This document shows positions 10,262 to 30,067 of a DNA stretch of 33,388 nt, one piece after another. The stretch comes from Oleiagrimonas sp. Its GTDB lineage: Bacteria > Pseudomonadota > Gammaproteobacteria > Xanthomonadales > Rhodanobacteraceae. The stretch is taken from positions 1-33,388 of the forward strand of contig NZ_JAQIBU010000166.1 of NCBI RefSeq assembly GCF_027858935.1, given 5' to 3'. The notes beneath the pieces were generated by a model. It saw nothing but the letters and a program-made list of their open reading frames with translations, ran no database searches and had not been told where the DNA came from. Every line of letters begins with the position of its first letter. Within the stretch, counting starts at the first letter, position 1. The position numbers were made by a program, and so were the translations under genes.

Positions 10262-12670
10262 TCAGAAATTGTATCGGCCGACCAGCCCTACAATTCGTCT
10301 TGCATTCCTGGGCACTTGCTGTCGTACGTAAGAAGCACACGGGACAACATTACCGTTAACTACTGTTAATGAGCAATTTGGTAAACGCACATCTGCATAG
10401 AATGTGTTTAGAACATTTTGCACTTCGAGTTTGACAGAGTAAGTATCTGTATCATCTGATGCTTTCAAGCCAATGTTCCAAATCCCATATGCTGGCTGCG
10501 TTGCATAAGCTGCTTGCGATATAGGTGTTTGAGCTGACTGCCAGTTGTAATTTGTATCAAGACTTAATACAAATGGTAGTGATGGCAATGGCAGTTCATA
10601 ATCACCATTTAATACAAATCTGTATTTTGGCGTTGCAAACTGTTTTCCGTTTCGATATTCACATGTCAATGGAGCACCCACAGGACAGTTGTATTTATCA
10701 ACTTTAGCATTTGTATAAGCGAATCCACCGGCAAGATTCATGCCTGGAATGGGTCTAGCCCGGAAGTCCATCTCCAACCCCTTCGTGCTAACTGTTCCGG
10801 CATTAACAAGATTAGTGATAATTGTCCCGTTGACATTAATGAAGTTGTTTGTCTGAAATCCATTGAACTTGGTGTAAAAGATTGATGTGTTCAACTGAAG
10901 ACGGCGATCAAACAGCACTGACTTAACACCAGCTTCATAGTCTTTTGATGTTTCTGCTGATATCAGAGCCGTATTGTTCGATGTCATATTGAAGAAAACG
11001 TTGTAGGCAGGACTTTTGTACCCCGTGCTGTAAGTCACATATGCCGTACTGTTATCGCTTAAATCTCCCTTCAAACCTATCTTACCAGTGACATGATTAT
11101 CAGTTGCGCTATCACTGTTATTAAAGCTAGGTTGCAATCCAGGCATCCCTCCAAGACTACTTCTACTTAAGTTATATCCAACTTTGTCGAAAGTGTAGCG
11201 TAATCCTAATATGCCGCGTATATGATCGGTGAATGAATATGTGCCTTGACCATAAAGGGCATAATTGTTGTGGGTTATTCTGTCGTATTCCTTACCCGAT
11301 CCGCTTACAAACGTTGATTTTCCAATTGCGCATGGAATGGTTCCATTTGGTAATGCAGGCAATGTAGATCCTACACAAAAAGTATCCAGACGTCGGAAAT
11401 TGTCATGTGCAATTGTGTGGAATAAAAACATTCCGGCAACATATTTGAACCGTCCAGTATCTGGCGAAACAATACGAAATTCCTGTGAATATTGATCAAG
11501 TGACATATGCCCATGATCGGCCATACGGAAGTCGTAAGGTACGGAAGATTCCAGTAGCCCCGGAGGTCCGGGTAAAAAATCACCATCTCGACGTTCCAGA
11601 TTCGTCCACCGGCGTGTTGCAGATATGGATACGAACTTGAATCCACTGGGCATGCTCCAGTCAAATTCAGCTGATAAACCTTCGTTTGTATCTTGCGTTA
11701 ACGGAAGTGTATCTTCATTGATATTCTTGTTTTTTGAATTTGGTACAACAGCGCCTAATTGAGGACGAAGGACCAAACTGGTAAATGGTGTGTTTTGCAC
11801 TATGTTAATAGACTGCCCACAGCAGTTGTCGTTTGTCCGAGACCAATCGGCGATAAACGTTCCTTTCAAGTTTGAATTTGGCCTCCAAATCAATTTGGAT
11901 CTCACGCCACCTTGTTTTGTTCCGTTGCTCAGTTTTCCATTGTAAAAGTTACGTGAATTACCATCAAAATTCCAGTATTCATATGCAACTTGTCCGTCAA
12001 GCGTTGATGAAATAGGTCCTGAAAACAGACCTCTTACGCGATATTCATTATCGTTGAATACGCTGCCCTGGACATATCCAGTTCTTTGATTTGTTGGATC
12101 TGTTGTAACAATGTTTATAGCACCAGCCGATGAATTCATACCAAATAGTGTTCCTTGCGGACCATTCAGTACTTCAACACGCTTCATGTTCAACAGATTT
12201 GTAAAAGCCATACCTGAAGCGGCATATACAACCCCATCTACAACAGTAGACACACTTGGTTCGCTCGCGCGACTAAATGAAACAGTACCTATACCACGTA
12301 TACTGAATGACTGATTTAAGTTTGTCGTTCCGCCATTAAACGTCAAACTTGGGGAAAACTGAGTCAATGATGTCGTAGTGGGTGTCGTCGCTTGTTCAAT
12401 CTGTTCTTGTGAAACGACATTTATTGATGCTGCAACTTTCTGCAGATTTTGCACCCGATGCTCTGCAGTCACCACCACTTCTTGCAGCTGTGCAGAATTC
12501 GCTTTTTCTTTTGACTTATTGTCTGATTTCTTGTTGTTTTTCATGGAAGATGCAGACTTTGCACCTTGTGATTCCTGTTGTTTTGATGACTTTGCCTGCG
12601 CAACGGTTAACGGTACTGCCCCAAACAGCAATGCCATGACGCACACGTACAACGGTCGATAATTTTTCAT
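10262..12670 (-). CDS. TonB-dependent outer membrane receptor
   Basis: Plug region LQEVVVTAEHRVQNLQKVAASINVVSQEQIEQ, RGIGTVSFSRASEPSVSTVVDGV, EVLNGPQGTLFGMNSSAGAINIVT; C-terminal aromatic GLVGRYNF. Confidence 0.95.
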   Translation of the reverse strand: MKNYRPLYVCVMALLFGAVPLTVAQAKSSKQQESQGAKSASSMKNNKKSDNKSKEKANSAQLQEVVVTAEHRVQNLQKVAASINVVSQEQIEQATTPTTTSLTQFSPSLTFNGGTTNLNQSFSIRGIGTVSFSRASEPSVSTVVDGVVYAASGMAFTNLLNMKRVEVLNGPQGTLFGMNSSAGAINIVTTDPTNQRTGYVQGSVFNDNEYRVRGLFSGPISSTLDGQVAYEYWNFDGNSRNFYNGKLSNGTKQGGVRSKLIWRPNSNLKGTFIADWSRTNDNCCGQSINIVQNTPFTSLVLRPQLGAVVPNSKNKNINEDTLPLTQDTNEGLSAEFDWSMPSGFKFVSISATRRWTNLERRDGDFLPGPPGLLESSVPYDFRMADHGHMSLDQYSQEFRIVSPDTGRFKYVAGMFLFHTIAHDNFRRLDTFCVGSTLPALPNGTIPCAIGKSTFVSGSGKEYDRITHNNYALYGQGTYSFTDHIRGILGLRYTFDKVGYNLSRSSLGGMPGLQPSFNNSDSATDNHVTGKIGLKGDLSDNSTAYVTYSTGYKSPAYNVFFNMTSNNTALISAETSKDYEAGVKSVLFDRRLQLNTSIFYTKFNGFQTNNFINVNGTIITNLVNAGTVSTKGLEMDFRARPIPGMNLAGGFAYTNAKVDKYNCPVGAPLTCEYRNGKQFATPKYRFVLNGDYELPLPSLPFVLSLDTNYNWQSAQTPISQAAYATQPAYGIWNIGLKASDDTDTYSVKLEVQNVLNTFYADVRLPNCSLTVVNGNVVPCASYVRQQVPRNARRIVGLVGRYNF

Positions 12671-12927
12671 CTTCACCCTCCTAGTTCCGTCTTGAGAATC
12701 GCCTATAGGCGTTTTCCTCACGAAAATCAATGGACTACTAGCTTTCTGTCTAGCTTAGGGGTGTATACGACAGAGCTTGCTTGAGTCAGGAACTTATACG
12801 CATACCAGCAACTAATTTGGTGTGTGAATAGCTAAGGTAGAACTTCCTGACAGTGCAAACGTTGTAGCGCCTCCCCCTCCTCCACCATGACTTGTTCGTA
12901 ACTTTCTTAACGTGATCTTTATCTGAT

Positions 12928-13258: not shown

Positions 13259-14020
13259 TCACACGATGCCGCCATCCACCAGGAAATCCTGACCCGTACA
13301 AGCGCGTGCGTCTTCGGATACGAGGAATAGGACCATCGCGGCCACATCATCCGTACCGAGTCGGAACTTCAAAGCCTGTTCGTCGATAAAACTTTGTTCA
13401 AGTCGATCATCGACCCACATCCGCATCTGACGCTCGGTTTTGATCGCTCCGGGTACCACCGAGTTGACGCGTATCCCCTTCGGGCCCAGCTCCTGTGCCA
13501 TGGTTCGTGTCAACGCGTGGATGCCTCCTTTTGCAGTGGTGTAGCCCGTAAACCCGGTACGCCGGCGTCGCCAACTGACAGATCCCATGTTGATAATTGA
13601 TGCACCCGAAGGCATCAGAGGAGCCGCAGCCTGCATTGCGAAAAAATGTGGACGCAAGTTCACTTCCTGGCTTGCATCCCAAGAAGTGGGTGTGACCTTG
13701 TCATATGCAATTCGTCTGTCATTGGCCGCGTTGTTGATCAGCACGTCGAGTCGTCCCTCGTGGTCTTCCGTGAAATCGCGTATGGCCTGTTGCAGACTGT
13801 CTATGTCGCGCACATCCACCTGACGCGTCCAAAGCGCGGCATGTCCTGCCGCCTTCATCTCACGCACCATTTTTTCGCTGGACTCATTGTCCAGATCTAT
13901 GAACCCGACCCTAGCCTTTTGCTCGAGAAGTCGCCTGACTAGACACGCACCGATTCCAGTAGCACCGCCGGTGACAAAAGCAGTCTTTCCGGAAAGGCAC
14001 GGATACTGATTTTTCAACAT
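13259..14020 (-). CDS. Short-chain dehydrogenase/reductase; candidate sulfoquinovose 1-dehydrogenase
   Basis: TGGATGIG cofactor motif, NNAAND, YTTAK catalytic motif, C-terminal GQDFLVDGGIV. Start MLKNQYPCL at 14020; 4 nt from the lactonase gene. Confidence 0.85.
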   Translation of the reverse strand: MLKNQYPCLSGKTAFVTGGATGIGACLVRRLLEQKARVGFIDLDNESSEKMVREMKAAGHAALWTRQVDVRDIDSLQQAIRDFTEDHEGRLDVLINNAANDRRIAYDKVTPTSWDASQEVNLRPHFFAMQAAAPLMPSGASIINMGSVSWRRRRTGFTGYTTAKGGIHALTRTMAQELGPKGIRVNSVVPGAIKTERQMRMWVDDRLEQSFIDEQALKFRLGTDDVAAMVLFLVSEDARACTGQDFLVDGGIV

Positions 14021-14024
14021 GAAA

Positions 14025-14930
14025 CTACCCCGCGAAATAGGGTTCGGGAATGCCAGGAACGGGTACCCGAAAACTGAAAATGCCACCGCTATGTGGATGA
14101 CTGCGAAGTTGCTCGTCACTCAGTTGCTGACGAGCTGTGGTGACAAAGGCTGTGCGCATGTCGGACCCCCCGAACGCGATCATGGTGGCGTTGATCGACG
14201 GAATCGTGACCATCTCTACGACTTTTCCATCGGGAGCAAATCGTACTACCCTGCCACCATCATAAAGTGCTGACCAATAACAGCCTTGCGTATCGACACT
14301 GGCGCCATCCGGCCGACCACCTTTGGACTTGAACTCAGTGAACGTGCGCGTGTGACTGATTTCCCCGCTCTCTGAGTCGTAATCCCAGCAACGCACAATA
14401 AGGTTGCGCGTATCTGACCAGTACATGGTCCGTCCATCCGGGCTAAAAGCCAGACCGTTAGCACTACGCACATCTCCAGCAAGACGCTCGATCACACCCT
14501 TCGCATTGATCCGGTGCAGCGCCCCTGATGATCCTTTGAAATCAATCGTGCCTGCCAGAAATCGCCCAACCTGATCACAACGCCCATCATTGAATCTTCC
14601 GCCATCGGGCACTACTACTCCCTCGCCAATCCAACGTGGCATGGCATCGAAATGATCAATCAAGGCAAAACGGTTCCTCATAGCCAGTACAAACCCGCCT
14701 TTGCTTCGCTCGGAAAAACACGCTACAGGTTCTTCAAAGACACGACTGCTGTTGTCACCGCTAACAGGATCGAAACGATTCAGCGTTTGCTCACTGATGT
14801 CGACCCAGTACAAGACCTGGTCCCTTACTGACCAACGCGGACACTCACCAAGAGCGGCCTGTGCATCCAGTTCAAGCCTCACGGCGCCATGTCCACCTTG
14901 TTCGCCTGAAGTTTCCGCGTTGCTCATCAC
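14025..14930 (-). CDS. SMP-30/gluconolactonase/LRE family lactonase; candidate sulfogluconolactonase
   Basis: LGECPRWSVRDQVLYWVDI, FNDGRCDQVGRFLAGT, SANGLAFSPDGRTMYWSDT, GGRPDGASVDTQGCYWSALYDGGRVVRF. Confidence 0.9.
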   Translation of the reverse strand: MMSNAETSGEQGGHGAVRLELDAQAALGECPRWSVRDQVLYWVDISEQTLNRFDPVSGDNSSRVFEEPVACFSERSKGGFVLAMRNRFALIDHFDAMPRWIGEGVVVPDGGRFNDGRCDQVGRFLAGTIDFKGSSGALHRINAKGVIERLAGDVRSANGLAFSPDGRTMYWSDTRNLIVRCWDYDSESGEISHTRTFTEFKSKGGRPDGASVDTQGCYWSALYDGGRVVRFAPDGKVVEMVTIPSINATMIAFGGSDMRTAFVTTARQQLSDEQLRSHPHSGGIFSFRVPVPGIPEPYFAG

Positions 14931-15066: not shown

Positions 15067-16803
15067 ATGAACAAGCCCAACAGCTCTCGCAAATCAATCA
15101 ATGAACTCCGCAGCCAGAGGTGGTTCGGCACGGCTGGCATGCGAGCATTTGCCCATCATCAGCGCATGTATCAAACCGGCGTCCGACGGGAGGACTACGC
15201 GGACAAGCCGGTCATTGGCATCATCAATACATGGAGTGATCTGAGTACCTGCCACTCCCACTTGAGAAGTCGCGCGCGTTCGGTGAAGGACGGCGTACTT
15301 GAGGCAGGTGGCTTTCCGGTTGAACTTCCGGCGCTCTCGCTAGGAGAAGTGATGGTCAAGCCGACCACGATGCTCTATCGCAATCTTTTGGCTATGGAAA
15401 CCGAAGAGCTTATCCGCAGTCACCCCCTGGACGCTGTGGTATTGATGGGCGGCTGCGACAAGACCACACCTGGTCTCATCATGGGTGCAACCAGTGCCGG
15501 CATACCGGCGTTGTACATGCCTGCCGGCGCTACTCTGAGCACGCGGTGGCGCGGAGAATCGATTGGCACCGGTACCCACACCCGCTCCTATTGGGACCAA
15601 TTGCGTGCAGGCGAGATCAGTGAAGAAGACTGGCGTGAACTGGAATCGGTTTCGGTACGCTCCTCCGGTACGTGCAACACCATGGGTACCGCTTCCACGA
15701 TGGCATTACTCGCCGAAGTGTTGGGATGGACACTTCCGGGCGCTGCTACTATCCCCGCGGTCGATTCGGCACATCCGCGCATGGCGCGAGCCGCAGGAGA
15801 ACGTGCAGTTTCAATGGCATGGGAGGATTGGACTCCCAAACGTTGGCTAAACGCCAGCAATTTCATGAATGCAATCACTTTGCAATTGGCGATTGGCGGC
15901 TCTACCAATGCCGTGATTCATCTGATAGCCATGGCCGGACGGGCCGGCATACCTCTTACTCTGGACAATTTCGCCGATCAGGCCGGTAAAGTGCCATTGA
16001 TCGCCGATCTGATGCCTACCGGTCGCTATCTGATGGAAGACCTGTATTTTGCTGGCGGCAGTCGCGCGCTGTTTGGTGAACTGGGCGACCTACTCGAAAC
16101 CGGATCCCTCAGTGTTACCGGCGACACCCTGAAGGAAAACATCAACGGTGCCAAGGTCTGGAATCACGATGTGATTCGTCCACTGGACAGACCGGTGACC
16201 GATACGCCTGCTTTGGCGGTGCTGCGGGGCAACCTGGCCCCTCATGGTGCCGTTATCAAGCCGTGTGCAGCCACGCATGCGTTGTTGCAACATCGCGCCC
16301 GCGCCGTGGTGTTCGAAAACGCAGCGGACATGCATGAACGTATCGATGATCCAAATCTGGAGGTCAATGCCGAGAGCATCCTTGTGCTGAAGAACGCCGG
16401 TCCAGTCGGCGCTGGAATGCCCGAATGGGGCGGACTGCCTATTCCCCAGAAATTGCTGCGCGCTGGTGTGCGCGACATGGTACGCATTTCTGACGCACGT
16501 ATGAGCGGTACCCATTTCGGCACCTGCATCCTGCATGTGGCTCCGGAGGCTGCAATCGGCGGCAACCTGGCGCTGGTCGAGAATGGAGACGAAATCGAAT
16601 TGGATGTTCTCGCCGGGCGGCTTGAGCTCCTGGTCGATGAAGCCACTCTCGCCGAACGCCGAAAACGATGGCAACGGCCAGATACGATCTATAAACGGGG
16701 TTTTGGCGTCTTACATGTATCGCATGTCAATCAAGCACCGCAGGGATGTGACTTCGACTTTCTCGCAGGTGCTGAGCCCACTCCCGAACCCGACATTTAC
16801 TAG
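15067..16803 (+). CDS. IlvD/Edd family sugar-acid dehydratase; candidate 6-deoxy-6-sulfogluconate dehydratase
   Basis: Fe-S/active-site motifs SDLSTCHSHL, MGGCDKTTPG, SSGTCNTMGTASTM, GGSTNAVIHL, DARMSGTHFGTCILHVAPEAAIGG. Confidence 0.9.
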   Translation: MNKPNSSRKSINELRSQRWFGTAGMRAFAHHQRMYQTGVRREDYADKPVIGIINTWSDLSTCHSHLRSRARSVKDGVLEAGGFPVELPALSLGEVMVKPTTMLYRNLLAMETEELIRSHPLDAVVLMGGCDKTTPGLIMGATSAGIPALYMPAGATLSTRWRGESIGTGTHTRSYWDQLRAGEISEEDWRELESVSVRSSGTCNTMGTASTMALLAEVLGWTLPGAATIPAVDSAHPRMARAAGERAVSMAWEDWTPKRWLNASNFMNAITLQLAIGGSTNAVIHLIAMAGRAGIPLTLDNFADQAGKVPLIADLMPTGRYLMEDLYFAGGSRALFGELGDLLETGSLSVTGDTLKENINGAKVWNHDVIRPLDRPVTDTPALAVLRGNLAPHGAVIKPCAATHALLQHRARAVVFENAADMHERIDDPNLEVNAESILVLKNAGPVGAGMPEWGGLPIPQKLLRAGVRDMVRISDARMSGTHFGTCILHVAPEAAIGGNLALVENGDEIELDVLAGRLELLVDEATLAERRKRWQRPDTIYKRGFGVLHVSHVNQAPQGCDFDFLAGAEPTPEPDIY

Positions 16804-16813
16804 GAGTCAACGC

Positions 16814-17587
16814 ATGACTACACGAAACCGTTTCAAGGCTGCACTGGATGCAGGTCAGTCGCTGCAAGGCGTCTGGTCGATGTCCGGCTCTCCAACTATT
16901 GTCGAGGCACTGGGACACGTCGGCGCCGATTATGTGGTGCTCGATCTCGAACATTCGCCCACCTCGATTCATGGCATGCTGCCACTGCTGCAAGCAAGTC
17001 GTTCAGCAAACACCTTGGCCGCAGTTCGTATGTCCGATCACAGTATGACGTCGACCAAACACGCACTGGACTTGGGGGCGAACACACTGATGTTTCCTTT
17101 CGTCCAGGATGCGACTGAAGCAGCTGCACTGGTCGCTTTCTGTCACTACCCGCCCAATGGACAACGCGGTTATGCGCTGATGACGCGTGCGTCAGACTAT
17201 CTGGCCGACAAAGATTATCTAGCACGGGCCTCCGATGACCTGCTTTTGATCATGCAGGTCGAAACGACGCAGGCAGTCGCCAACGTCGAGAAGATCGCGC
17301 AAGTGTCTGGCGTCGGCGCAATCTTTGTGGGCCCGGGGGACCTGTCAGCGTCCATGGGACACCTTGGAAATGCTGGACACCCCGATGTGAGGAGCTTGAT
17401 GGCTGAATGTGCTCAGCGTGTCAATTCAGTTGGACTGGCCTGCGGTACTGTTATGGGTGATGCAGAGCAAGCTGCATGGGCTTTCGAGGTTGGCTACCGT
17501 TTCGTGGCTGTCGGTACGGATATGGCTTTGCTCTGTGGCAATGCTCGCAAGGCGCAACTCGATGTGCGTGAAAGGCGTCAAAAATGA
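16814..17587 (+). CDS. HpcH/HpaI family class II aldolase; candidate 2-keto-3,6-dideoxy-6-sulfogluconate (KDSG) aldolase
   Basis: VGADYVVLDLEHSPTSIHGM, GANTLMFPFVQDATEAAALVAFCHYPPNGQRGY, MQVETTQAVANVEKIAQVSGVGAIFVGPGDLSASMG. ATG at 16814, 10 nt after the dehydratase stop. Confidence 0.9.
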   Translation: MTTRNRFKAALDAGQSLQGVWSMSGSPTIVEALGHVGADYVVLDLEHSPTSIHGMLPLLQASRSANTLAAVRMSDHSMTSTKHALDLGANTLMFPFVQDATEAAALVAFCHYPPNGQRGYALMTRASDYLADKDYLARASDDLLLIMQVETTQAVANVEKIAQVSGVGAIFVGPGDLSASMGHLGNAGHPDVRSLMAECAQRVNSVGLACGTVMGDAEQAAWAFEVGYRFVAVGTDMALLCGNARKAQLDVRERRQK

Positions 17588-17598
17588 TCCGGCCACGC

Positions 17599-19071
17599 TT
17601 AGACCTGAGCTATCGCGCGATACCAACCATCAAGCAGACGATTTCGACGGTCTTGAGCCATGTCCGGAACAAATCGGGCATCCCGACGACACAACGCAGC
17701 GAAACTGTCGAAATCACCGTATAGATCACTCTGCCTGCCTGCCAAGTAGGCAGCGCCAAGCGCTGTGGTCTCCATTACCTTTGGTCGATCAACGGGAATA
17801 TCAACAATATCCGCTAGAAATTGTAGAAGCCAGTTATTACGCACCATGCCGCCGTCAACGCGCAACGACCTTGGAGAAATACCATCTTCGGCCATTGCAC
17901 TGAGCAAATCTGACGTCTGATAAGCCGTCGCTTCGAGTGCCGCACGAACGATATGTGCGCGTTGCGTTGCTCGGGTCAGACCGCTGAGAATACCCCGTGC
18001 ATCAGCGCGCCAGTGAGGTGCCCCCAACCCCGTGAAGGCGGGTACAAGATATACGCCGTCTGTATCGTCGATGCTGCGTGCCATCGCTTCGCTCTGTTCC
18101 GCGTTGTCCAGCAATCCAATGCCGTCGCGCAGCCACTGCACAGCAGCACCGGCAACGAAAATGGATCCCTCCAGCGCGTAATTCACCTTTCCATCGATGC
18201 GCCAGGCAACAGTTGTGAGCAATCGATGCGTCGATTGTGCCGGCATTGAACCGGTATTCATGACCACAAAACAACCGGTTCCGTAAGTGCTCTTTATGCT
18301 GCCGGTTTCGAAACATGCTTGTCCGAGCAATGCACCTTGCTGATCACCGACCATGCCACGAATCGGAATAGCACGACCAAACAACTCCGGTTCGGTGAAT
18401 CCGTATTCATCCGCGCAATCCCTGACCTCGGGCAATAGCCCATCAGGAATACGGAAAAGTGCCAGCAAATCTGGATCCCATTGCTGGCTGTGTATATCGA
18501 ACAAGCAGGTCCGGCTGGCGTTGGTTGCATCCGTAAGGTGACGGCGGCCACCGGTAAGCTTCCAGAGCAGAAAGCTGTCCACGGTTCCGAAGGCCAGTTC
18601 GCCCGTCTCGGCTCGCTTCCTGCTTCCGGGTACGTGGTCAAGCAACCAACCGATCTTGGTCGCCGAGAAATACGGGTCGAGGAGCAGTCCGGTCCTTGCA
18701 CTCACCAGTTCACCGTGCCCCGCATCGGCCAATGTCGAACAGGTCGCAGCTGTGCGCCGATCCTGCCAGACGATCGCGTTATGTATCGGTTTTCCGTTGC
18801 GGCGATCCCACACCAAGCTGGTTTCACGCTGATTGGTGATGCCTATGGCCACTACGCGATGGCCATTCCTCTCGGCTGCCTGCAATGCATTGCGGGCCAC
18901 AGCAAGGGTGCTTTGCCAGATCGCCGAAGGGTCGTGCTCGACCTGAGCAGGGGCCGGATAGATCTGGGCAAACTCCTGCTGGAAGACACTGACAATGGTG
19001 GCATCTGCATCAAACACGATGGCTCGACTGCTGGTGGTGCCTTGGTCCAGCGCGAGCACACAATTGCCCAC
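17599..19071 (-). CDS. glpK: Glycerol kinase (FGGY family)
   Basis: LALDQGTTSSRAIVFD, GITNQRETSLVWDRRNGKPIHNAIVWQDRRT, TDATNASRTCLFDI, GMVGDQQGALLGQACFETGSIKSTYGTGCF. Confidence 0.95.
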   Translation of the reverse strand: MGNCVLALDQGTTSSRAIVFDADATIVSVFQQEFAQIYPAPAQVEHDPSAIWQSTLAVARNALQAAERNGHRVVAIGITNQRETSLVWDRRNGKPIHNAIVWQDRRTAATCSTLADAGHGELVSARTGLLLDPYFSATKIGWLLDHVPGSRKRAETGELAFGTVDSFLLWKLTGGRRHLTDATNASRTCLFDIHSQQWDPDLLALFRIPDGLLPEVRDCADEYGFTEPELFGRAIPIRGMVGDQQGALLGQACFETGSIKSTYGTGCFVVMNTGSMPAQSTHRLLTTVAWRIDGKVNYALEGSIFVAGAAVQWLRDGIGLLDNAEQSEAMARSIDDTDGVYLVPAFTGLGAPHWRADARGILSGLTRATQRAHIVRAALEATAYQTSDLLSAMAEDGISPRSLRVDGGMVRNNWLLQFLADIVDIPVDRPKVMETTALGAAYLAGRQSDLYGDFDSFAALCRRDARFVPDMAQDRRNRLLDGWYRAIAQV

Positions 19072-19073
19072 GG

Positions 19074-19997
19074 TCAGTCCAGGTATTTCAGTACGTTCTG
19101 TGCGGTCACTTCGCTTACCCTGATGTTCGATTGTTCAGTGACACCCGCGATGTGTGGGGTCAGTATCAGATTTTCGAGGCCGGTGAAAACAGATGCAGTC
19201 TCGGCGTCCAATGGTTCCCGTTCGAACACGTCAAGCGCGGCGCCAGCCAGCCTACCCTCGCGCAACGAAGCTGCCAGCGCGTTTTCGTCCACCACGCCGC
19301 CGCGCGACGCGTTGATGAGAATGGCGCGCGCACGCATCATGCCCAACGCTTTCGCATCAATCATGTGTCGCGTCTCTTTCGTCAACGGCACATGCAGACT
19401 GATCACGTCCGATTTTTGAAGGATTTCCTCGAGACTGCCAGATTGCACATTTTTCCAAGCAGCATGATCCTTCGGTAGGTACGGATCAAAAGCCAGCACG
19501 TTCATGCCCAGTGCCTGCACCCGCAGAGCAACTGCTTGCGCTATTGCTCCAAAGCCGACCAGTCCCATACTGGTGCCGGCCAGCTCACGGCCAATCAACT
19601 CCATGCGTGGCCATTGACCAGCTATCAACTGGTTTGTAGCCGCGTAGGCGCCACGCAGCAACTGCAACGCGCAACTGACCACATATTCAGCTACCGCCTG
19701 ATCATTCGCGTTCTTTGCCGGATGCACTGCTATGCCGCGAGCCTTGCATGCCGGGACGTCAATATTGTCCAACCCCACACCAAGCCGTCCTACTACCCGG
19801 AGCTTTTGCGCAGCCTCCAGCAACGACGCACGGACTTGGGTCCGGTTACGAACGATTACCGCTCGCGCCTCAGCCAACGCTGCATGCAATTCATGGGTTC
19901 GGTCGACCAGGGTCGGGTCGTACAGCACATCGTGATCGGCGAAGACCTTACTGATCACCATTTCGTCCATGAATTCGCTAATCACAATATCAGCCAT
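19074..19997 (-). CDS. slcC: D-isomer-specific 2-hydroxyacid dehydrogenase; candidate (S)-sulfolactate dehydrogenase (SlcC-like)
   Basis: VGRLGVGLDNID, GTSMGLVGFGAIAQAVA, NASRGGVVDENAL, LILTPHIAGVTEQSN. Start [13 protein letters not shown] at 19997 overlaps the comC-like gene end. Confidence 0.75.
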   Translation of the reverse strand: MADIVISEFMDEMVISKVFADHDVLYDPTLVDRTHELHAALAEARAVIVRNRTQVRASLLEAAQKLRVVGRLGVGLDNIDVPACKARGIAVHPAKNANDQAVAEYVVSCALQLLRGAYAATNQLIAGQWPRMELIGRELAGTSMGLVGFGAIAQAVALRVQALGMNVLAFDPYLPKDHAAWKNVQSGSLEEILQKSDVISLHVPLTKETRHMIDAKALGMMRARAILINASRGGVVDENALAASLREGRLAGAALDVFEREPLDAETASVFTGLENLILTPHIAGVTEQSNIRVSEVTAQNVLKYLD

Positions 19998-21069
19998 GCT
20001 TAGAATCCGGGTTAGAGGAGAGTGTTCGTGCCGCCAATTGGTCGATTTCTGCCAACAGATTTGGAGCAACTTCGATACCGTCGCGAAACGCAGCAGCGCG
20101 CCGCGCCAGTCGCGAGGTGCCGGGAAGTCGCACTCCAGGCTCCTCACCAAATGCTTGCAACAATGCGGCCGCCCGCTGTGCAAAGGCTCCACCAGACACA
20201 TGCTGCGCGTCGATTGCAATGATGATCTGACCAAGATTCGGTGCAGCACCCTTGTCATCCAGTACCGAGGAGGCCTCCCAACCGAAGTGCGACCCAGCAA
20301 TACCAGCCGCAAGCAACTCGACGATTAACGCCAGCGCAGCTCCTTTTGATCCGGCAATCGGCAACATTGAGCCTTTCAGCCCGGCCTCCGGATCCGTAGT
20401 GGGTTGCCCGCTGCTATCCAATGCCCATCCTTCGGGTATGGATTTGCCTTGCTTTGACGCTGTTACAACCTTGCCCCGCGCAGCCGTCGACAAGGCAAGG
20501 TCGATGACCAGTGGCGGACCCTTCTGCAGCGGACATGCAAACGCGATCGGATTGGTGCCCAGACGCGGCTCCTTACCTCCCCAGAATGCCATTGCCTTGG
20601 GAGAATTACCGAACATCAATGACATCATGCCGGCTTCCGCGAGCTGCTCGACTATTCGCCCCGCCTGTCCGAAATGATGCGAGCGATGCACAGCCGCGAT
20701 CGCTATCCCTTCACTGCGAGCCAATGCTGGAAGGGCTGCGACTGCCAGATCCAAGGCGGGGAATGCGAAGCCATGCGCTGCGTCGATCCGTACCGCGGCA
20801 GGTGCTACCTGCTCCACCTCTGGTGTAGCGAATCCGTCAACCTTACCCACGCGTGCCTGAGCTGAGTAGCTGGGCACACGTGACAGACCATGCCCGTATT
20901 GGCCATCTATCTCCGCGCTTATCAAAGCATGCGCCACGGCCGCCGCATTGGCTTCATTGCAACGATTTGTGATCAACGCGGAAATGACGCGCTGCTCTGC
21001 CTCAGAGATAGAAAGCCATACCGATGCGGAGGCTGCAGCTTCGGAGCTTTCCGATGAACTATCAAGCAC
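19990..21069 (-). CDS. comC: Malate/L-lactate dehydrogenase (Ldh_2) family oxidoreductase; candidate (R)-sulfolactate dehydrogenase (ComC-like)
   Basis: [72 protein letters not shown]. Confidence 0.75.
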
Positions 21070-22234
21070 TGCGATACAACTTGGTCATCACGAACTCGCG
21101 GTGACCAAGCGCCTCCGCGGCAGTGAAGCGACCGTTGGCGGTATCAACGATGCAGTTGATCAGGCTGTCGCCGGCCTGGTCTATCGACATTTCGCGCCGT
21201 ACTATTCCAGACACATCCACATCGATGTGCTCTGACATCAATCGGACGGTACGTGGATTGCCTGTGATCTTTATTACCGGCATGATCGGATTGCCGACAA
21301 CATTGCCCTGACCCGTAGGAAAGCAGTGCACGACATACCCTGCTGCAGCCATAAGGGTCACGCACTCAGCCGCTGCGGATGATGTATCCATGAAGTACAG
21401 GCCAGGACCCCGCTCTGGTGCTTCGGCCGGCTCGAGAACATCCAGATAGCTGCACTTCTTCCCGATTTTTTCCAAATTACCGAGCGCCTTTTCCTCGATG
21501 GTTGTGAGACCGCCCTCGATATTACCTCGGGTAGGTTGGCTCTCCGACAAGTCGTTGGTCTTGTGTTGTTCGATGACGTCGTTCTGATACGCGCTCCACA
21601 CCCGCATGAATTTCTCGCCAATCTCCGGTGTAGCAGCTCGAGCCTTGCATAAGTGCTCTGCACCAGTGATTTCCGAAGTCTCGCCGAACACGCCGTAGAT
21701 GCCCTTGCTGATCAGCTTGTCGTACATATTGCCGACTGTGGGACACGAAGCCAGCCCTGTCGTGGTATCAGATTCACCACACTTGGCCGCCACCCAAAGT
21801 TCGGATACATCGCATTCAGTACGAACCATGCCCGATGTGGCGTGCACGAATTCCTTGGCCTGCCGCGAAGCCTTCATGATGGTTTCTAGATCGCCATGAC
21901 CTTCGATGGAGAATCCAACAACAGGCTTTCCAGTTTTGGCGATTCCGTCAACGATCCGTTTCGTCCAGCCAGGCTCGATACCTATGACAATGCATGCAGC
22001 CACATTTGGATTGGCACCGGTACCGATAATGGTACGGAAGTGCAGATCTAGATCCTCACCGAACTGCAGACGGCCGTAGGAATGCGCTAGGGCGATTGTA
22101 CCCTTGATGTTGTTCGCCACTGCTTCGCAGGCGGCATTTGAGATGTCATCGACCGGAAGTATTGCAACATAGTTGCGCACTCCGACCCGCCCGTTCTCGC
22201 GTCGATAACCCCAAAACTTTGTTTGCTCAGTCAT
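21062..22234 (-). CDS. suyB: UxaA-family large subunit, SuyB-like (2R)-sulfolactate sulfo-lyase subunit beta
   Basis: 390 aa, [113 protein letters not shown]; resembles SuyB as recalled and is split from the SAF subunit. Confidence 0.8.
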
Positions 22235-22246
22235 GAATTTTTTCCT

Positions 22247-22615
22247 TTACCAGCGCTTGGTCTTGAGGTTTTGCACATGCACGTGATCGCCCTTCTTGGT
22301 CGTAGCAACGATGCGACCGATATCCTGTCCATATTTGACGACCGTATCTCCCTCGGCCATATCCTTCAGCGCGATCTTGTGCCCAATCTGTACATCTTGA
22401 GTGGGAGTCACATGGAAATCGGAGTCGTCTTCCAGCACCACGCCGAGCAGATTCGACCCGGCTTTGACTCCTTCAACCACGACAACTCCTACATTGTCCT
22501 TTTTGTCGTGTACCAGCAATTGTGGTTGAGACACAGCACATTTCTCCCGAGTAGGACGCCGGATCTCTCCAGCGTGTTTGAATTTTTTGACCAAGCTGGC
22601 AAGCCGAGAGGCCAT
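22247..22615 (-). CDS. suyA: SAF-domain small subunit, SuyA-like (2R)-sulfolactate sulfo-lyase subunit alpha
   Basis: QLLVHDKKDNVGVVVVEGVKAGSNLLGVVLEDDSDFHVTPTQDVQIGHKIALKDMAEGDTVVKYGQDIGRIVATTKKGDHVHVQNLKTKRW; immediately upstream of suyB. Confidence 0.8.
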   Translation of the reverse strand: MASRLASLVKKFKHAGEIRRPTREKCAVSQPQLLVHDKKDNVGVVVVEGVKAGSNLLGVVLEDDSDFHVTPTQDVQIGHKIALKDMAEGDTVVKYGQDIGRIVATTKKGDHVHVQNLKTKRW

Positions 22616-22787: not shown

Positions 22788-23513
22788 ATGGATTCTAAAT
22801 TTACCCCAGGGGTACGCCCGCTTTATCAGCAGGTCTACGACTACCTTCTTGAACAAGTCGCTGCCGGTACCTGGAAGCTTGGTGCAGCACTACCCAGCGA
22901 ACAGGCGCTAGGCCAACAACTGGGCGTGAGCCAAGGAACCGTTCGCAAGGCCTTGGACGAACTTGCAAGCATCGGCGTCATGGAACGTCGTCAGGGCAAG
23001 GGAACGTTTGTTGCTGTGAACAGCGAAGAACGCTCGCTGTTTCGCTTTTTTCACCTTTGCACCCCTGGTGGCGATCGCGTCACTCCCAGCGCCACTGGCG
23101 AAAAGGTTACGCGCAGAACAGCCACAGCAGCGGATATGGCGCATCTAGGACTGGCAAAGAACGCCAAGGTCATCGAGATCAAGAGGGTGCGCCTCATCGA
23201 GCAGCAGCCAATAATTTTCGAAACCATCATTGTGCCTGCCACCATGCTTGCTGGGTTGGACAAGCGCAAAACGCTACCGAATTCGCTTTACTCGCTGTAC
23301 CACTCCGCATTCGGCATCAATATCGGCTCAGTGCAGGAAGAGTTGCGTGCGGCCCTGGCCGACAAACAAGATCGAGATCGACTTAGCGTACCGATTGGCA
23401 GCCCGCTTCTGCATATTGATCGAATAGCTTTCGGCATAGACGGTACACGGGTGGAGTGGCGCATAAGTCGCTGCAGCACGGCGCATCACGTCTATTCCAT
23501 CGAACTTTCCTGA
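22788..23513 (+). CDS. GntR family transcriptional regulator, HutC/UTRA type
   Basis: N-terminal wHTH PLYQQVYDYLLEQVAAGTWKLGAALPSEQALGQQLGVSQGTVRKALDELASIGVMERRQGKGTFVA plus UTRA-like C-terminal domain. Confidence 0.9.
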   Translation: MDSKFTPGVRPLYQQVYDYLLEQVAAGTWKLGAALPSEQALGQQLGVSQGTVRKALDELASIGVMERRQGKGTFVAVNSEERSLFRFFHLCTPGGDRVTPSATGEKVTRRTATAADMAHLGLAKNAKVIEIKRVRLIEQQPIIFETIIVPATMLAGLDKRKTLPNSLYSLYHSAFGINIGSVQEELRAALADKQDRDRLSVPIGSPLLHIDRIAFGIDGTRVEWRISRCSTAHHVYSIELS

Positions 23514-23597: not shown

Positions 23598-25046
23598 ATG
23601 GACCAGACAGAACTGCTGCAACAGACCTGCCATGTTGGTGGTCGATGGCTGGCCGCAGACGATGGCTCAACCCGTGATGTAATAGACCCGGCTACTGGCG
23701 AAAAGGTCGGCAGCGTCCCGCACTTCCGCACGCAGGAGACCAAGCGCGCGATCGATGCTGCTGCAAAGGCATTTCCTGGTTGGCGTGACACCCCGGCCGC
23801 GCGACGCGGCGAGCTGATGCAAAAGCTCGCCGATTTGATGATGGAACATCGCGAGCCTCTGGCGATACTGCTAACCAGGGAAATGGGCAAGCCTTTGGCT
23901 GAATCACGCGGTGAAATTGCCGGCGGTGTGGGCTACCTGCGTTGGTTCGCCGAGGAAGGTAAACGCATCTATGGCGACACGATTCCTTCCCCATGGCCCG
24001 AACGTCGTCTACTGGTAATGAAGCAGCCGGTGGGTGTGGTCGGAGCGATCACGCCCTGGAATTTCCCCAGCAGCATGATCGCACGCAAGCTTGGCGCCGC
24101 ATTGGCCGCCGGTTGCACGATGGTCGTCAAGCCTGCTCCACAGACCCCATTCTCGGCATTGGCGATAGCCGTTTTGGCAGAAAAGGCGGGCCTGCCCCCT
24201 GGGGTACTCAATGTAATCACCGGTGAGGCAGCAGAGATCGGAGCAGCAATGATCGATCACCCGCAGCTACGCAAGATAACTTTCACCGGATCGACCGCAG
24301 TGGGCAAGCAACTCGCTTCGGCAGCGACAGCCAACATGAAGCGCGTTTCCATGGAGCTAGGCGGTAATGCACCCTTCATCGTCTTCGACGATGCAGACCT
24401 GGACGCCGCCGTCGAAGGGGCGATGATCGCCAAATTCCGCAACACGGGACAGACCTGTGTATGCGCCAACCGTATCCTGGTCCAGGACAGCGTATATGAC
24501 ATATTTGCGCAGAAGCTTGCAGCAGCGGTAAAGGAACTCAGGGTCGGTAACGGCTTTGAAGAGGGCGTGACACAGGGACCGCTTGTAAACAGCGCCGCGC
24601 TCAAAAAAGTCGAGGCTCACGTCGCAGACGTACGGGCACATGGTGGCACTGTCTTGCTGGGCGGAAAGCCACATTCCCGCGGAGGGTTATTCTACGAGCC
24701 AACGGTACTTACCGGAGTCGCTGCCGATGCCTTGATCATGCGCGAAGAAACATTTGGCCCGGTTGCTCCGCTGGTCCGCTTTCATGACGAAAAGGAGGCC
24801 ATCCAGCTGGCAAACGCAACAGAATACGGACTCGCCAGTTATTTCTACGCGCACAATCTGGCGCGTGTGTTTCGCGTGATGGAACAGCTCGAATATGGCC
24901 TTGTAGGCGTCAACACCGGCATGGTGACAACAGAGGTGGCGCCGTTCGGCGGCGTCAAGGCAAGTGGTATGGGTCGTGAAGGATCAAAGTATGGTGTCGA
25001 GGACTATCTTGACATCAAGTACTGCTGCCTCGACCTGGGTCACTGA
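23598..25046 (+). CDS. NAD(P)-dependent aldehyde dehydrogenase (GabD-like); candidate sulfolactaldehyde dehydrogenase
   Basis: ITPWNFPSSMIARKLGAALAAGCTMVVKPAPQTP, FTGSTAVGKQL, MELGGNAPFIVFDDADLDAAVEG, FRNTGQTCVCANRILV. ATG at 23598 (MDQTELLQ). Confidence 0.9.
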   Translation: MDQTELLQQTCHVGGRWLAADDGSTRDVIDPATGEKVGSVPHFRTQETKRAIDAAAKAFPGWRDTPAARRGELMQKLADLMMEHREPLAILLTREMGKPLAESRGEIAGGVGYLRWFAEEGKRIYGDTIPSPWPERRLLVMKQPVGVVGAITPWNFPSSMIARKLGAALAAGCTMVVKPAPQTPFSALAIAVLAEKAGLPPGVLNVITGEAAEIGAAMIDHPQLRKITFTGSTAVGKQLASAATANMKRVSMELGGNAPFIVFDDADLDAAVEGAMIAKFRNTGQTCVCANRILVQDSVYDIFAQKLAAAVKELRVGNGFEEGVTQGPLVNSAALKKVEAHVADVRAHGGTVLLGGKPHSRGGLFYEPTVLTGVAADALIMREETFGPVAPLVRFHDEKEAIQLANATEYGLASYFYAHNLARVFRVMEQLEYGLVGVNTGMVTTEVAPFGGVKASGMGREGSKYGVEDYLDIKYCCLDLGH

Positions 25047-25057
25047 GGCATCATCGA

Positions 25058-27160
25058 ATGACGAACCTCCAGGACATCGAGCAGCACTGGCCCGCACCAC
25101 AATGGAACGATATCACTCCAGTGACTGTGACGGGCGAGGTGGTACTTGTCGCCAACGATCATGTGGTGATTCCGACCAATGCGGGCCCACTCAATATCTC
25201 CCTGTATTCCGACGGCATGCGAATCGACAGCGGACCGCGCGCAATCGGCGACTACGGGATGCTGGCCAAGGAACCCGAACGCCTACCGTTGCAACTGAGT
25301 AACGAGACCAACCGAAACATCGTGCGGGGAGGCGATTTCGAGCTCGAGCTTGAGCTTGAACCTCTGGCTTTCGTCTTGCGTAAAAACGGGATCGTAGTAC
25401 AGCGTTCACCGCGCGACAGCCATTTTGAACGACGTTTCCGTCTTCCACCATTTGCTCGGATTGAACGTGGTTGGCTTGTCTCACTCGATCTTCAGTCGAA
25501 CGAACCGGTCTACGGTCTGGGCGAGAAGTGGGGACGGTTGGACAAGCGTGGGCAGTGGCTACGCTCGCTGAACGAGGACGCGTTGGGCGTCAACGCAGAG
25601 CGTTCCTACAAGAACACGCCATTTGCATGGTCTCCTCGCGGCTGGGGATCCCTGGTACACACACCCTCTCCAGTAAGCCACGCTGTTGGCTTCGCGCCCT
25701 TTTCCGAGCGGGCGTATGTCATAACAATCGAGGACGAGGCGCTGGACTTTTTCCTGTTCGCCGGAGCGAATGGCGCAGAGTTACTTGGCAGTTATACCGA
25801 CCTGACCGGTCGCGCTCCGGTACCGCCGCTTTGGAGTCTGGGACTGATTCTGTCCAAGGCGTACTACCGCACGCCTGAGGAAGTACTCGAAGTAGCGCGC
25901 GAAGTTCGCCGCCGTGGTATGCCGTGCGACACCATCACCTTCGATGGACGTGCCTGGCAGGATACCGAAACACGCTTCGCATTCGAATGGGATCCAAAGC
26001 GCTTCGATAATCCCAGAGAGGTACTAGCCCAACTTAAAGACATGGACTTTCGCATATGTGTGTGGGAATACCCGCTGATCTCAACACGCCATCCATGGTT
26101 CGAAGAACTGCAAAGCAAGGGCTGGTTGTTAACCGACGCAGCTACCGGCAAGGCCTATCGCTATAGCTGGGAAACGGAAGCATTCGGGAAGGTGCTGACG
26201 CCGCTCCCTGACTCCGGACTGCTCGACTTCACCCATCCTGAGGCCTACAGATTCTGGCGCGACCAACACCGCGCGCTCTTCGATCTAGGCGTGGACATGA
26301 TCAAAGCTGATTTTGGCGAACAGATCACAGACGACATGCGCGCCTTCAACGGCGAGCATGGACATGCTTTGCACAATGTCTACACGCATCTATATAACCG
26401 CTGTGTGTACGAGGGCGCAGAGAGTTATTCCAGCGCTGGACCCTTTCTGTTCTCACGCTCCAGTTGGATTGGCGCGCAGCGATATCCTTCACAATGGGGT
26501 GGCGATCCTCAAGCCGACTGGGGGGGCATGGCCGCCAATCTACGCGGTGGTGTGGCATGGGGCCTGAGCGGCGGCGCCTACTACGCTACCGATATAGGTG
26601 GCTTCTATCAGGATGATCGAGATCCGGTGCTGTACGTACGCTGGGCCCAAGCCGCAGTCTTTTCCGCACACATGCGTCTGCATGGCATAGGTGCGCGCGA
26701 GCCGTGGTCCTACGGAAGCGAAGCAGAAGCCGCTACTTTCGCGGCCCTCAGGTTGCGCTATCGTCTCTTGCCCTATCTGCTTGCAACAATGCAGACCGCT
26801 CATGCTACCGGCCTTCCGGTCCAGCGAGCGATGGTACTGGCCTGCCCCGACGAACGAGCATCATGGGCCTTTGAGGACCAGTTCTTCTTCGGATCCGACA
26901 TACTGGTTGCACCCTGTCTGGATCCGGACGGTTCCGTCGAAATCTACCTTCCACAGGGTATCTGGCACCGTTTTCCTGATGGCGGTGCATTCGAGGGTGG
27001 GCAAACGCACCAGTTGCACCTGGCACTGACGCAGACCGCCGTTTTCGTGCGCGCCGGCACAAGCATTCCATTGGGCCCAGAGGTTCAACACACTGGCGAA
27101 CTGGGCGGAACTGCCCGCATCATCGAATATTGGCGCGACGGCGCATTTTCACCTGCGTAA
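25058..27160 (+). CDS. GH31 family alpha-glycosidase; candidate sulfoquinovosidase by neighbourhood, but YicI-like in its motifs
   Basis: GH31 nucleophile region MIKADFGEQ, acid/base region QWGGDPQADW, FSRSSWIGAQRYPSQW, ATDIGGFY. Confidence 0.9.
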   Translation: MTNLQDIEQHWPAPQWNDITPVTVTGEVVLVANDHVVIPTNAGPLNISLYSDGMRIDSGPRAIGDYGMLAKEPERLPLQLSNETNRNIVRGGDFELELELEPLAFVLRKNGIVVQRSPRDSHFERRFRLPPFARIERGWLVSLDLQSNEPVYGLGEKWGRLDKRGQWLRSLNEDALGVNAERSYKNTPFAWSPRGWGSLVHTPSPVSHAVGFAPFSERAYVITIEDEALDFFLFAGANGAELLGSYTDLTGRAPVPPLWSLGLILSKAYYRTPEEVLEVAREVRRRGMPCDTITFDGRAWQDTETRFAFEWDPKRFDNPREVLAQLKDMDFRICVWEYPLISTRHPWFEELQSKGWLLTDAATGKAYRYSWETEAFGKVLTPLPDSGLLDFTHPEAYRFWRDQHRALFDLGVDMIKADFGEQITDDMRAFNGEHGHALHNVYTHLYNRCVYEGAESYSSAGPFLFSRSSWIGAQRYPSQWGGDPQADWGGMAANLRGGVAWGLSGGAYYATDIGGFYQDDRDPVLYVRWAQAAVFSAHMRLHGIGAREPWSYGSEAEAATFAALRLRYRLLPYLLATMQTAHATGLPVQRAMVLACPDERASWAFEDQFFFGSDILVAPCLDPDGSVEIYLPQGIWHRFPDGGAFEGGQTHQLHLALTQTAVFVRAGTSIPLGPEVQHTGELGGTARIIEYWRDGAFSPA

Positions 27161-27232: not shown

Positions 27233-28765
27233 TCAACCGCCTGGTTTCTGCTTTGCGTCAGACGATAGCGCCCTGCGGCGGGAGTCCATGTAGCTCTGCA
27301 CCTGCTCCTGTGCGGTTGCGTCCAAGTGCAGACCCAGCTTGGAGCGTCGCCACAGCACGTCTTCGACACTGCATGCCCATTCAGTGGACATGAGGTAATC
27401 CAGCTCCGATGCAGTGAGGCCCAGACCAAAATCCTGGCCTAGATCCTGCATTTTTCGCGCCTGACCGATCACGCGATCAATACGGGAACCATAAGCGTGG
27501 GCGAGCCGGTTCAGCGCAGCCGGCGGCATAAACGCATATTTTGCTTCAAGTTGCTCCAGCCACTCATCGAAATTAGCGTCGGGAATGTCACCTCCGGGCA
27601 AGAGCGCATCCCGGGTCCAGGGACGTGAACGACGGCCAAGCACCTTGTCTAGCTTGCCTAGTGCTTCTTCGGCAAGTCGACGGAAAGTGGTGATCTTGCC
27701 GCCATAAACAGTCAACAATGGAGCCTCTCCATTACCCCCGCTAAGTTCCAACGTGTAGTCGCGTGTGATCGCCGAGGGATTATTGGAACCGTCGTCATAC
27801 AGAGGTCGAACTCCTGCGAAACTCCAGATCACATCGGTTGGCTTCACTTCCCGTTTCAGATACCCGCTGACAGTCCGGCACAAATAAGCGGTCTCTTGCT
27901 CACTAATTGCCACATCGGACGGATGCTCCGAATAGGGTACGTCCGTAGTTCCGATCAACGTGAAATCGTGTTCATACGGGATCATGAACACGACACGACC
28001 ATCACCTCCTTGCAATGTATATGCTTGCAGGCCAGCGTAAAGTCGAGGCACCACGATATGGCTGCCTTTGATCAGCACCACACTGCTTCCGGCGCTCCTC
28101 GAATGCAGCTTTTCGGCGACCGGCATCACCCATGGACCCGTCGCGTTGACAATTGCTCGTGCACGCACGCGAAGAGTATCTCCCTCCTCTAGCAACAAGT
28201 CGGCCTGCCAGACGCCCTCTAGCCGATGTGCTGCAATGAAGCGTGTATGCGTCAGCACCTCGGCCCCCCGTTCGCGGGCATCCAATGCATTGAGGACAAC
28301 CAGGCGCGCATCGTCTACCCAGCAATCTGAGTATTCAAATCCCAATGCGTAGCGCGCGTCCAATGGATCGCCTGCCGCATGTTTGCGCAGATGCAATGTG
28401 CGTGTCGCTGGCAGCCGTCTGCGTCCCCCCAAGTGGTCGTAGACAAACAGACCAAATCGGAGCAGAGGCGCTGGTCGCAAGTCCGCATGATATGGCAGGA
28501 CGAAGCGCAGAGGCCACACGACATGGGGTGCCGAGCGCCATAATACTTCGCGTTCACTCAACGATTCTCGCACCAGTCGAAATTCGTAGTGCTCGAGATA
28601 GCGCAAACCACCGTGGATCAGTTTCGAACTGGCTGATGAAGTTCCACTGGCGAGATCAGCCTGCTCGCAAAGCAGCACTTTGTAGCCGCGTCCCGCAGCA
28701 TCGCGCGCGATGCCAGCACCGTTGATGCCACCGCCAATAACCAGTAAATCGAATTCGCGTTCCAT
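27233..28765 (-). CDS. glpD: FAD-dependent glycerol-3-phosphate dehydrogenase
   Basis: DLLVIGGGINGAGIARDAAGRGYKVLLCEQADLASGTSSASSKLIHGGLRYLEHYEFRLVRESLSER; TDVPYSEHPSDVAIS; LLTVYGGKITTFRRLAEEAL. Confidence 0.95.
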   Translation of the reverse strand: MEREFDLLVIGGGINGAGIARDAAGRGYKVLLCEQADLASGTSSASSKLIHGGLRYLEHYEFRLVRESLSEREVLWRSAPHVVWPLRFVLPYHADLRPAPLLRFGLFVYDHLGGRRRLPATRTLHLRKHAAGDPLDARYALGFEYSDCWVDDARLVVLNALDARERGAEVLTHTRFIAAHRLEGVWQADLLLEEGDTLRVRARAIVNATGPWVMPVAEKLHSRSAGSSVVLIKGSHIVVPRLYAGLQAYTLQGGDGRVVFMIPYEHDFTLIGTTDVPYSEHPSDVAISEQETAYLCRTVSGYLKREVKPTDVIWSFAGVRPLYDDGSNNPSAITRDYTLELSGGNGEAPLLTVYGGKITTFRRLAEEALGKLDKVLGRRSRPWTRDALLPGGDIPDANFDEWLEQLEAKYAFMPPAALNRLAHAYGSRIDRVIGQARKMQDLGQDFGLGLTASELDYLMSTEWACSVEDVLWRRSKLGLHLDATAQEQVQSYMDSRRRALSSDAKQKPGG

Positions 28766-28852: not shown

Positions 28853-30067
28853 ATGGGAAGTTCGAGACTGCGCTACTGGGTACTGACACTGGTCGTCATT
28901 GCCATCATGCTCAACTATGTTGATCGTCAGATCATTGCATTGCTGAAGCCGATACTGGAGCAGCAGTTTGGTTGGAACGACGCAGACTACGGCGATATCA
29001 CCACATTTTTTCAACTCGGTGGAACGGTGGCTGTCCTTTTCGCTGGTCGATTCGTTGACCGTACTGGCCTGAAGTCAGGCTATGCATGGGGTGTCGGCGT
29101 TTGGAGCCTGGCTGAGATCGCACATACAGTCACCCGTACCGTAACGCAATTTTCGGCGGCACGACTGGTTCTGGGGGTGGCCGAGTCGGTAAACACACCG
29201 GCGGCCGTAAAGAGCATGGCGACCTGGTTCCCGCAAAAGGATCGCTCCTTGGCGTTGGGCATCATGAATGCCGCGCCCAATATCGGCGCCATCGCTACAC
29301 CACTGTTGATACCATGGCTGGCGCTGACTTATGGCTGGCGCGAGACCTTCTTCATTACTGGCGTCGCAGGATTGGTCTGGCTGGTCATATGGCTCGCGCT
29401 TCCCAAGCCACCCAAGCGAATCGAAGTTCACGGCGAATCCAAGCCTCGCCCCGTACCGTGGCGACAATTGATGGATGACCGCTATACCTGGATCATGGTG
29501 TTGGGCAAACTGATGACCGATCCGGTCTGGTGGTTGCTGCTGTTCTGGGCTCCAGACTTTTTTGACCATCGCTACCACCTGAACATGGCGCATATCGGTT
29601 TACCCATTGCCACAATCTACCTGATGGCGATGATCGGCGCCTTTCTTGGTGGGTGGCTCCAGAGCTTGCTGATACGCCGAGGATTATCGGTCAATGCTGC
29701 GCGCAAGATTCCCATGCTGATTGCGTCATTTCTGGTACTGCCGCTACCGCTGGTTCTGCTCACGTCAAATTACTGGGTGGCAGTACTGCTGGTGGGCACT
29801 GCACTTGCCGGTCACCAAGCATTTTCCACCAATTTGTTCGGCTTGGCTGCTGACTCATTTCCCCACCGCGCTGTCGGCTCAGTGATCGGTATCTCAGCAT
29901 TCGCAGGCAATCTAGGCGGACTCGCCATCCTTTTCATTGCAGGCATCCTGTTGAATCGCTATCACAGCTACCTGCCGCTGTTCGCGTACGCAGCGATCGC
30001 GTACCTCGTCGTGCTAGCACTGATCAATTGGATCGCGCCCCGGTTACGACTGATCGAAGAGAATTGA
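28853..30067 (+). CDS. MFS transporter, anion:cation symporter (hexuronate/sugar-acid)-like; candidate importer of SQ or SQ-glycerol
   Basis: MLNYVDRQIIALLKPILEQQFGW and multiple TM helices; ATG at 28853 preceded by GGAG, preferred over upstream starts overlapping operator E. Confidence 0.85.
   Translation: MGSSRLRYWVLTLVVIAIMLNYVDRQIIALLKPILEQQFGWNDADYGDITTFFQLGGTVAVLFAGRFVDRTGLKSGYAWGVGVWSLAEIAHTVTRTVTQFSAARLVLGVAESVNTPAAVKSMATWFPQKDRSLALGIMNAAPNIGAIATPLLIPWLALTYGWRETFFITGVAGLVWLVIWLALPKPPKRIEVHGESKPRPVPWRQLMDDRYTWIMVLGKLMTDPVWWLLLFWAPDFFDHRYHLNMAHIGLPIATIYLMAMIGAFLGGWLQSLLIRRGLSVNAARKIPMLIASFLVLPLPLVLLTSNYWVAVLLVGTALAGHQAFSTNLFGLAADSFPHRAVGSVIGISAFAGNLGGLAILFIAGILLNRYHSYLPLFAYAAIAYLVVLALINWIAPRLRLIEEN

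Follow-up and report, generated by a model that had tools for sequence, protein, structure and literature searches.

The GH31 gene and its neighbours in the window

The window, which is the whole 33,388-nucleotide stretch of Oleiagrimonas sp. DNA analyzed here, contains a GH31 glycosidase gene at positions 25058..27160 of the plus strand, and its product is a proposed alpha-sulfoquinovosidase (SQase). The ORF has an ATG start, encodes 700 aa and begins 11 nt past the stop codon of an upstream aldehyde dehydrogenase gene; all four motifs quoted in an earlier note on this DNA are found in it. The Pfam GH31 domains are present as a full set and score far over their cut-offs (284 bits for PF01055), and the protein possesses the TIM-barrel domain of the family together with an invariant catalytic pair: the nucleophile D418 (26309..26311, plus strand), aligned with YihQ D405 and YicI D416, and the acid/base D483 (26504..26506, plus strand), aligned with YihQ D472 and YicI D482. 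A signal peptide is not obvious by eye, and the enzyme is therefore probably cytoplasmic. The earlier note had judged the region preceding the core closer to YicI-type alpha-xylosidases than to YihQ, and the searches agree for the protein as a whole: the nearest chains by sequence are 5f7c (BT_0339) and YicI at ~330 bits versus ~125 bits for YihQ-type chains, and the NCBIfam models score 425 bits for YicI and 195 bits for YihQ, both under cut-off, that of the alpha-xylosidase equivalog being 606 bits. The AlphaFold2 (AF2) model (mean pLDDT 88.7, pTM 0.90) has YicI (8t7z/1we5) as its top Foldseek match, with YihQ-type chains absent from the top 50; this ranking backs the phylogeny given below and is silent on substrate.

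Four genes with the predicted functions of a sulfo-ED pathway for sulfoquinovose (SQ) are found in the same window. A short-chain dehydrogenase/reductase (SDR) at 13259..14020 of the minus strand (likely ATG 14020, the ORF opening at 14119) is the proposed SQ dehydrogenase. Its top PDB match is the Sulfoquinovose 1-dehydrogenase of P. putida (9gwu, E 2.5e-65), in which Arg152 contacts the sulfonate directly and Arg154 does so via water (PMC12133307), and both positions are Arg in the window protein. The other three genes encode an SMP-30 lactonase (14025..14930, minus strand), a proposed sulfogluconolactonase with 43% identity to that of the Shinella cluster; an IlvD/EDD-family (PF00920) dehydratase (15067..16803, plus strand), a proposed sulfogluconate dehydratase with 58% identity to the Shinella sulfo-ED enzyme; and an HpcH/HpaI aldolase (16814..17587, plus strand), proposed by domain match to be the KDSG aldolase. 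The aldehyde dehydrogenase that precedes the GH31 gene (23598..25046, plus strand, within a TTG-started ORF from 23535) belongs to the SSADH/GabD group, is 55% identical to its Shinella counterpart and is the proposed sulfolactaldehyde dehydrogenase.

The sulfo-lyase arm is recognized by homology alone, with SlcC, ComC, SuyA and SuyB present together on the minus strand. It comprises an SlcC-like (S)-sulfolactate dehydrogenase assigned by Pfam and NCBIfam (19074..19997, likely ATG 19997, a TTG-started ORF reaching 20312); a ComC-like sulfolactate dehydrogenase of the Ldh_2 type (19990..21069), whose best NCBIfam match is L-sulfolactate dehydrogenase, under cut-off; and the large and small subunits of (R)-sulfolactate sulfo-lyase, SuyB (21062..22234; Pfam GD_AH, homologues of 75-84% identity occur in 11 further loci) and SuyA (22247..22615; a weak galactarate dehydratase N-terminal match, conserved beside SuyB). 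SuyAB did not match a curated model of their own. Disposal of the glycerol aglycone is assigned to the glycerol kinase GlpK (17599..19071, minus strand), with the glycerol-3-phosphate dehydrogenase GlpD (27233..28765, minus strand) as the next step, both matching NCBIfam equivalogs over cut-off. Thus, the SQ context proposed in the earlier note is real, as judged by the likeness of the SDR to SQ dehydrogenase with both sulfonate-contacting arginines kept, the SlcC/ComC/SuyAB set and the glycerol genes.

The regulatory and transport genes include a GntR/UTRA regulator (22788..23513, plus strand), homologues of which are found near most clade members (described below), an MFS transporter recognized by Pfam and NCBIfam, a putative importer of SQ or SQ-glycerol (28853..30067, plus strand), and a TonB-dependent receptor (10262..12730, minus strand), homologues of which flank most clade members. 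Beside the receptor lies a carboxylesterase gene (8150-9823, minus strand) with a signal-like N-terminus, which could be a sulfolipase stripping the acyl chains from SQDG. An aldose-1-epimerase, possibly an SQ mutarotase (5631..6644, plus strand), is separated from the rest of the cluster by a transposase (DDE_Tnp_1, DUF772) at 6799-7785 of the plus strand.

Phylogenetic position and the YihQ triad

A genome scan yielded 80 loci with 50-69% identity to the window protein and a class-wide search yielded 5 more, which together with the window make a set of 86 loci, 83 members of which were aligned along with a relative from Deinococcus. The closest relatives are encoded in three Nitrospirillum loci (L005, L006 and L081; 68-69% identity), and the plasmid-borne protein of Deinococcus peraridilitoris is more distant (43%). 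The GH31 phylogeny, proposed as a check in the earlier note, places the clade and the Deinococcus protein on a single branch (support 100), which joins YicI and a Haloarcula protein with support of 99 in the large tree and 97/95 in the careful tree. The clade is thus monophyletic and sister to YicI, lying outside the YicI clade proper, and the YihQ-type enzymes are found elsewhere in the tree; a topology uniting the clade with YihQ is rejected by the AU test (p-AU 0.0012). The window enzyme represents a GH31 lineage that is separate from YihQ and has its origin on the same side of the family as YicI.

In E. coli YihQ, the sulfonate is bound by an established triad, R301, W304 and Y508, which the earlier note had described as missing here. 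The triad was compared in an 85-row alignment and by profile-profile alignment, and none of the three residues is conserved in the window protein. By profile-profile alignment R301 and W304 sit in an insertion that the window protein is without, the alignments to YihQ being uncertain around that insertion; the YicI-YihQ profile alignment is unreliable near it and was left unused. The site of Y508 is occupied by F516 (26603..26605, plus strand), which is Phe in all 83 relatives. R306, in the sequence TRF, was weighed as an in-register counterpart of YihQ R301, but this pairing was abandoned, as R301 falls on E304 in the global alignment and is without a partner in the profile alignment. The earlier note had also pointed to the Phe that follows DIGG; it is present, but it is not distinctive by itself, being common to YicI.

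Descent from a YihQ-type sulfoquinovosidase, with strong divergence and loss of the triad, would be in keeping with the pathway role and family common to both enzymes and with the basic residues that each has close to beta-alpha loops 1-2. The rejected joint grouping, the well-supported placement with YicI and the loss of all three triad residues speak against this origin, and we consider it scarcely credible.

Clade neighbourhoods and the proposed function

The ORFs neighbouring the clade genes were clustered, their families were named, and each locus was scored for SQ pathways within ~10 kb. Among the 86 loci, 47 contain a TauD-type dioxygenase together with an aldo-keto reductase (AKR), the sulfo-SDO pair; 16 contain two or more members of the set made up of FucI-like isomerase, PfkB kinase and DeoC/LacD aldolase, and SuyB accompanies them in 11 of these 16; the window carries the sulfo-ED pathway. 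In total, a local SQ pathway is present in 64 loci and a partial one in 4, leaving 18 with none. A key gene is located elsewhere in 11 more genomes: the SDO dioxygenase was found away from the GH31 gene in 10 of the 15 genomes checked for loci without a pathway, and one further genome of this kind has an SQ isomerase elsewhere (86% identity). For the FucI-like family, the sole NCBIfam match is sulfoquinovose isomerase, under cut-off. As a control, 20 loci of other GH31 genes from the phylum were scored, of which 18 are without any of these pathways; the two exceptions have FucI-like and PfkB genes next to a third GH31 type. Among 369 genomes from the class, the clade GH31 is present in 6, the dioxygenase in 5 and both in 4. 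A hypergeometric calculation by hand gives ~1e-7 for a random overlap of this size, a figure that is overstated because three of the four genomes share a genus. Taken over the whole clade, the GH31 genes are associated with SQ catabolism, and SQ is common to the three unrelated pathways (sulfo-SDO, hybrid sulfo-EMP and sulfo-ED) beside them.

Several individual neighbourhoods are of interest. Seven gammaproteobacterial MAG loci (L051, L052, L054, L056, L030, L032 and L084) combine SQ isomerase, kinase and aldolase with SlcC/ComC/SuyAB, which suggests complete SQ mineralization by a hybrid sulfo-EMP route. On the D. peraridilitoris plasmid (L126, 1334-12058), the GH31 gene lies in a cluster with isomerase, kinase, aldolase and aldehyde dehydrogenase genes; the annotation is L-fucose isomerase/tagatose aldolase, and the cluster looks like sulfo-EMP. 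The Paraglaciecola loci (L022, L027 and L031) have the SDO dioxygenase and reductase at another locus than the GH31 gene, so that a survey of single clusters limited to 10 ORFs would overlook the link. The third GH31 type in the two control exceptions (L163 and L164, around GH31_L109 and GH31_L110) is ~670-725 aa long, has the motif DLGGY beside its FucI-like and PfkB neighbours, joins YihQ on a long branch in one tree and may be an enzyme for another sulfosugar or deoxysugar.

A recognizable SQ pathway was not found within 10 kb of the GH31 gene in Nitrospirillum (3 loci) or Rhodothalassium, nor nearby in one class genome with the clade GH31. Genome-wide, SQ isomerase was found in neither Nitrospirillum nor Rhodothalassium, and the SDO dioxygenase was not found in Rhodothalassium. 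Nitrospirillum has IlvD homologues (52%) away from the GH31 gene (L139), in the neighbourhood of genes for an SDR, a lactonase and an SSF protein; this group was followed as a possible sulfo-ED pathway, and a matching aldolase was not found near it. These exceptions, with the closest relatives among them, may use an unrecognized or scattered pathway, and they modestly lower our confidence in the SQase assignment.

The clade might instead cleave glycosides of other sulfosugars, such as alpha-sulfofucosides, or SQ linked to other aglycones, with SQ-glycerol not the main substrate. The sulfofucose pathway likewise ends in SlcC/ComC/SuyAB (PMC12421959), and the glycerol genes are missing from some clade loci. 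However, sulfofucose degradation uses a dehydratase of a different family (PF13378/PF02746; PMC12421959), so that the PF00920 enzyme of the window, the type found in SQ degradation, argues against sulfofucose; moreover, the SDR matches SQ dehydrogenase, the isomerase of the EMP-type loci matches SQ isomerase, and GlpK and GlpD are present in the window and in several other loci. Such alternative substrates appear improbable, and SQ-glycerol is the more likely one.

From sequence and gene context, the GH31 product very likely frees SQ from its glycerol glycoside. As proposed, a cytoplasmic retaining alpha-glycosidase would cut sulfoquinovosyl glycerol into SQ and glycerol, and the glycerol would pass to GlpK and GlpD. 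The successive action of SQ dehydrogenase, lactonase, dehydratase and aldolase on SQ would yield pyruvate and sulfolactaldehyde, the latter being oxidized to sulfolactate, which SlcC/ComC would invert and SuyAB would cut into pyruvate and sulfite.

The loop-2 signature as a candidate sulfonate pocket

In the clade alignment, 38 columns are fixed that are rare in YicI, YihQ and other GH31 proteins. The clade signature, D296-G-R-A-W-Q-D-T-x-T-R-F307, occupies beta-alpha loop 2 (25943..25978, plus strand), with G297, R298, T305 and R306 invariant in 83 of 83 members; the Deinococcus relative retains D-G-R-A-W and T-R. This loop is one residue longer than that of YicI and is modeled with moderate confidence (pLDDT 73-85). 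In YicI, C307 and F308 decide between xylose and glucose, i.e. the fit at C6, as known from mutagenesis. The window protein has G297 and R298 there instead, the profile alignment placing G297 on C307 and R298 (25949-25951, plus strand) on F308. Two further conserved charged residues are located on the active-site face according to the model and the alignment: K267 at the end of beta-strand 1 (25856..25858, plus strand; Lys in 81 and Arg in 2 of the 83 relatives), a candidate second basic residue, and E337 of the sequence WEYP at the end of beta-strand 3 (26066..26068, plus strand), invariant in the clade and Ile in both YicI and YihQ. In the proposed mechanism, G297 would make room in loop 2 and R298 would bind the sulfonate at the site of YicI C307/F308, perhaps with assistance from K267 or R306. 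Provided that the enzyme is an SQase, we lean towards R298 as the sulfonate ligand.

These replacements bear on the possibility that the protein is a conventional alpha-xylosidase or alpha-glucosidase of the YicI type, present in the cluster by chance. Although YicI-type enzymes are its nearest characterized relatives and best fold matches, both size determinants are changed, the score is under the YicI equivalog cut-off, and three unrelated SQ pathways recur around the clade versus any match in 2 of 20 control loci; we regard a chance association as very improbable. Between the two options of the earlier note, a different substrate is less favoured than a new GH31 clade that acts on SQ by means of another sulfonate pocket, given the monophyly, the three non-homologous SQ pathways and the basic residue that is invariant in the loop determining the fit at C6. 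As a whole, a GH31 SQase of separate lineage with a putative loop-2 pocket, in a cluster that would let one organism mineralize SQ-glycerol, explains the data best, and we hold this explanation with considerable confidence.

Comparison with known sulfoquinovosidases and sulfosugar pathways

SQ is produced at ~10 billion tons a year and is mostly locked in glycosides (PMC10755693). Two SQase classes have been named, YihQ-type GH31 and GH188 (PMC10755693, PMC13372026). Surveys target these classes, and members of the present clade would get an alpha-xylosidase or alpha-glucosidase label, so that sulfo-SDO and EMP bacteria able to use the glycosides would go unnoticed as such. A description of the clade was not found in the literature covered on these SQase classes, and its novelty as a second GH31 SQase lineage is provisional. 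If the clade is SQ-active, its position apart from YihQ means that SQase activity arose twice in GH31. It is probable that SQases evolved at least two times in this family, and that a widespread YicI-related lineage, recognizing the sulfonate by its loop-2 Arg, fills the gap left by the lack of an SQase in the sulfo-SDO and hybrid sulfo-EMP clusters of marine Gammaproteobacteria, of some Alphaproteobacteria and of a Deinococcus. A second origin with the short signature DGRAW, if true, would be a clean test case of sulfonate recognition gained twice in one family.

The YihQ-type SQases (E. coli YihQ, A. tumefaciens SQase and E. rectale SftG) share with the window enzyme the GH31 fold, the catalytic Asp pair and the gateway position in SQ clusters, but identity is ~23-29%, the triad is not conserved and the clades are separate. 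For known SQases, kcat/KM values on pNP-alpha-SQ lie around 1e5 per M per s (PMC11968277). YicI-type alpha-xylosidases form the sister group with the best fold match and common WGGD and DIGGF regions; they differ in C307/F308, replaced by G297/R298, in the extra loop-2 residue of the window enzyme and in their xyloside rather than SQ context, the window score being under the YicI equivalog. The NAD-dependent GH188 sulfoquinovosidases (SqgA) serve as the SQase in SQ clusters without YihQ (PMC10755693), and have an unrelated fold and an oxidoreductive mechanism, whereas the window protein is a GH31 enzyme. Among pathways, the Shinella sulfo-ED cluster has counterparts of the window dehydratase, lactonase, aldolase and aldehyde dehydrogenase together with a YihQ-type SQase. 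The sulfofucose pathway of Paracoccus wurundjeri resembles that of the window in having ED-type steps followed by SlcC/ComC/SuyAB in one organism, but its dehydratase is of another family, its glycosidase was not found and its uptake is by an ABC system, in contrast to the MFS and TonB genes of the window (PMC12421959).
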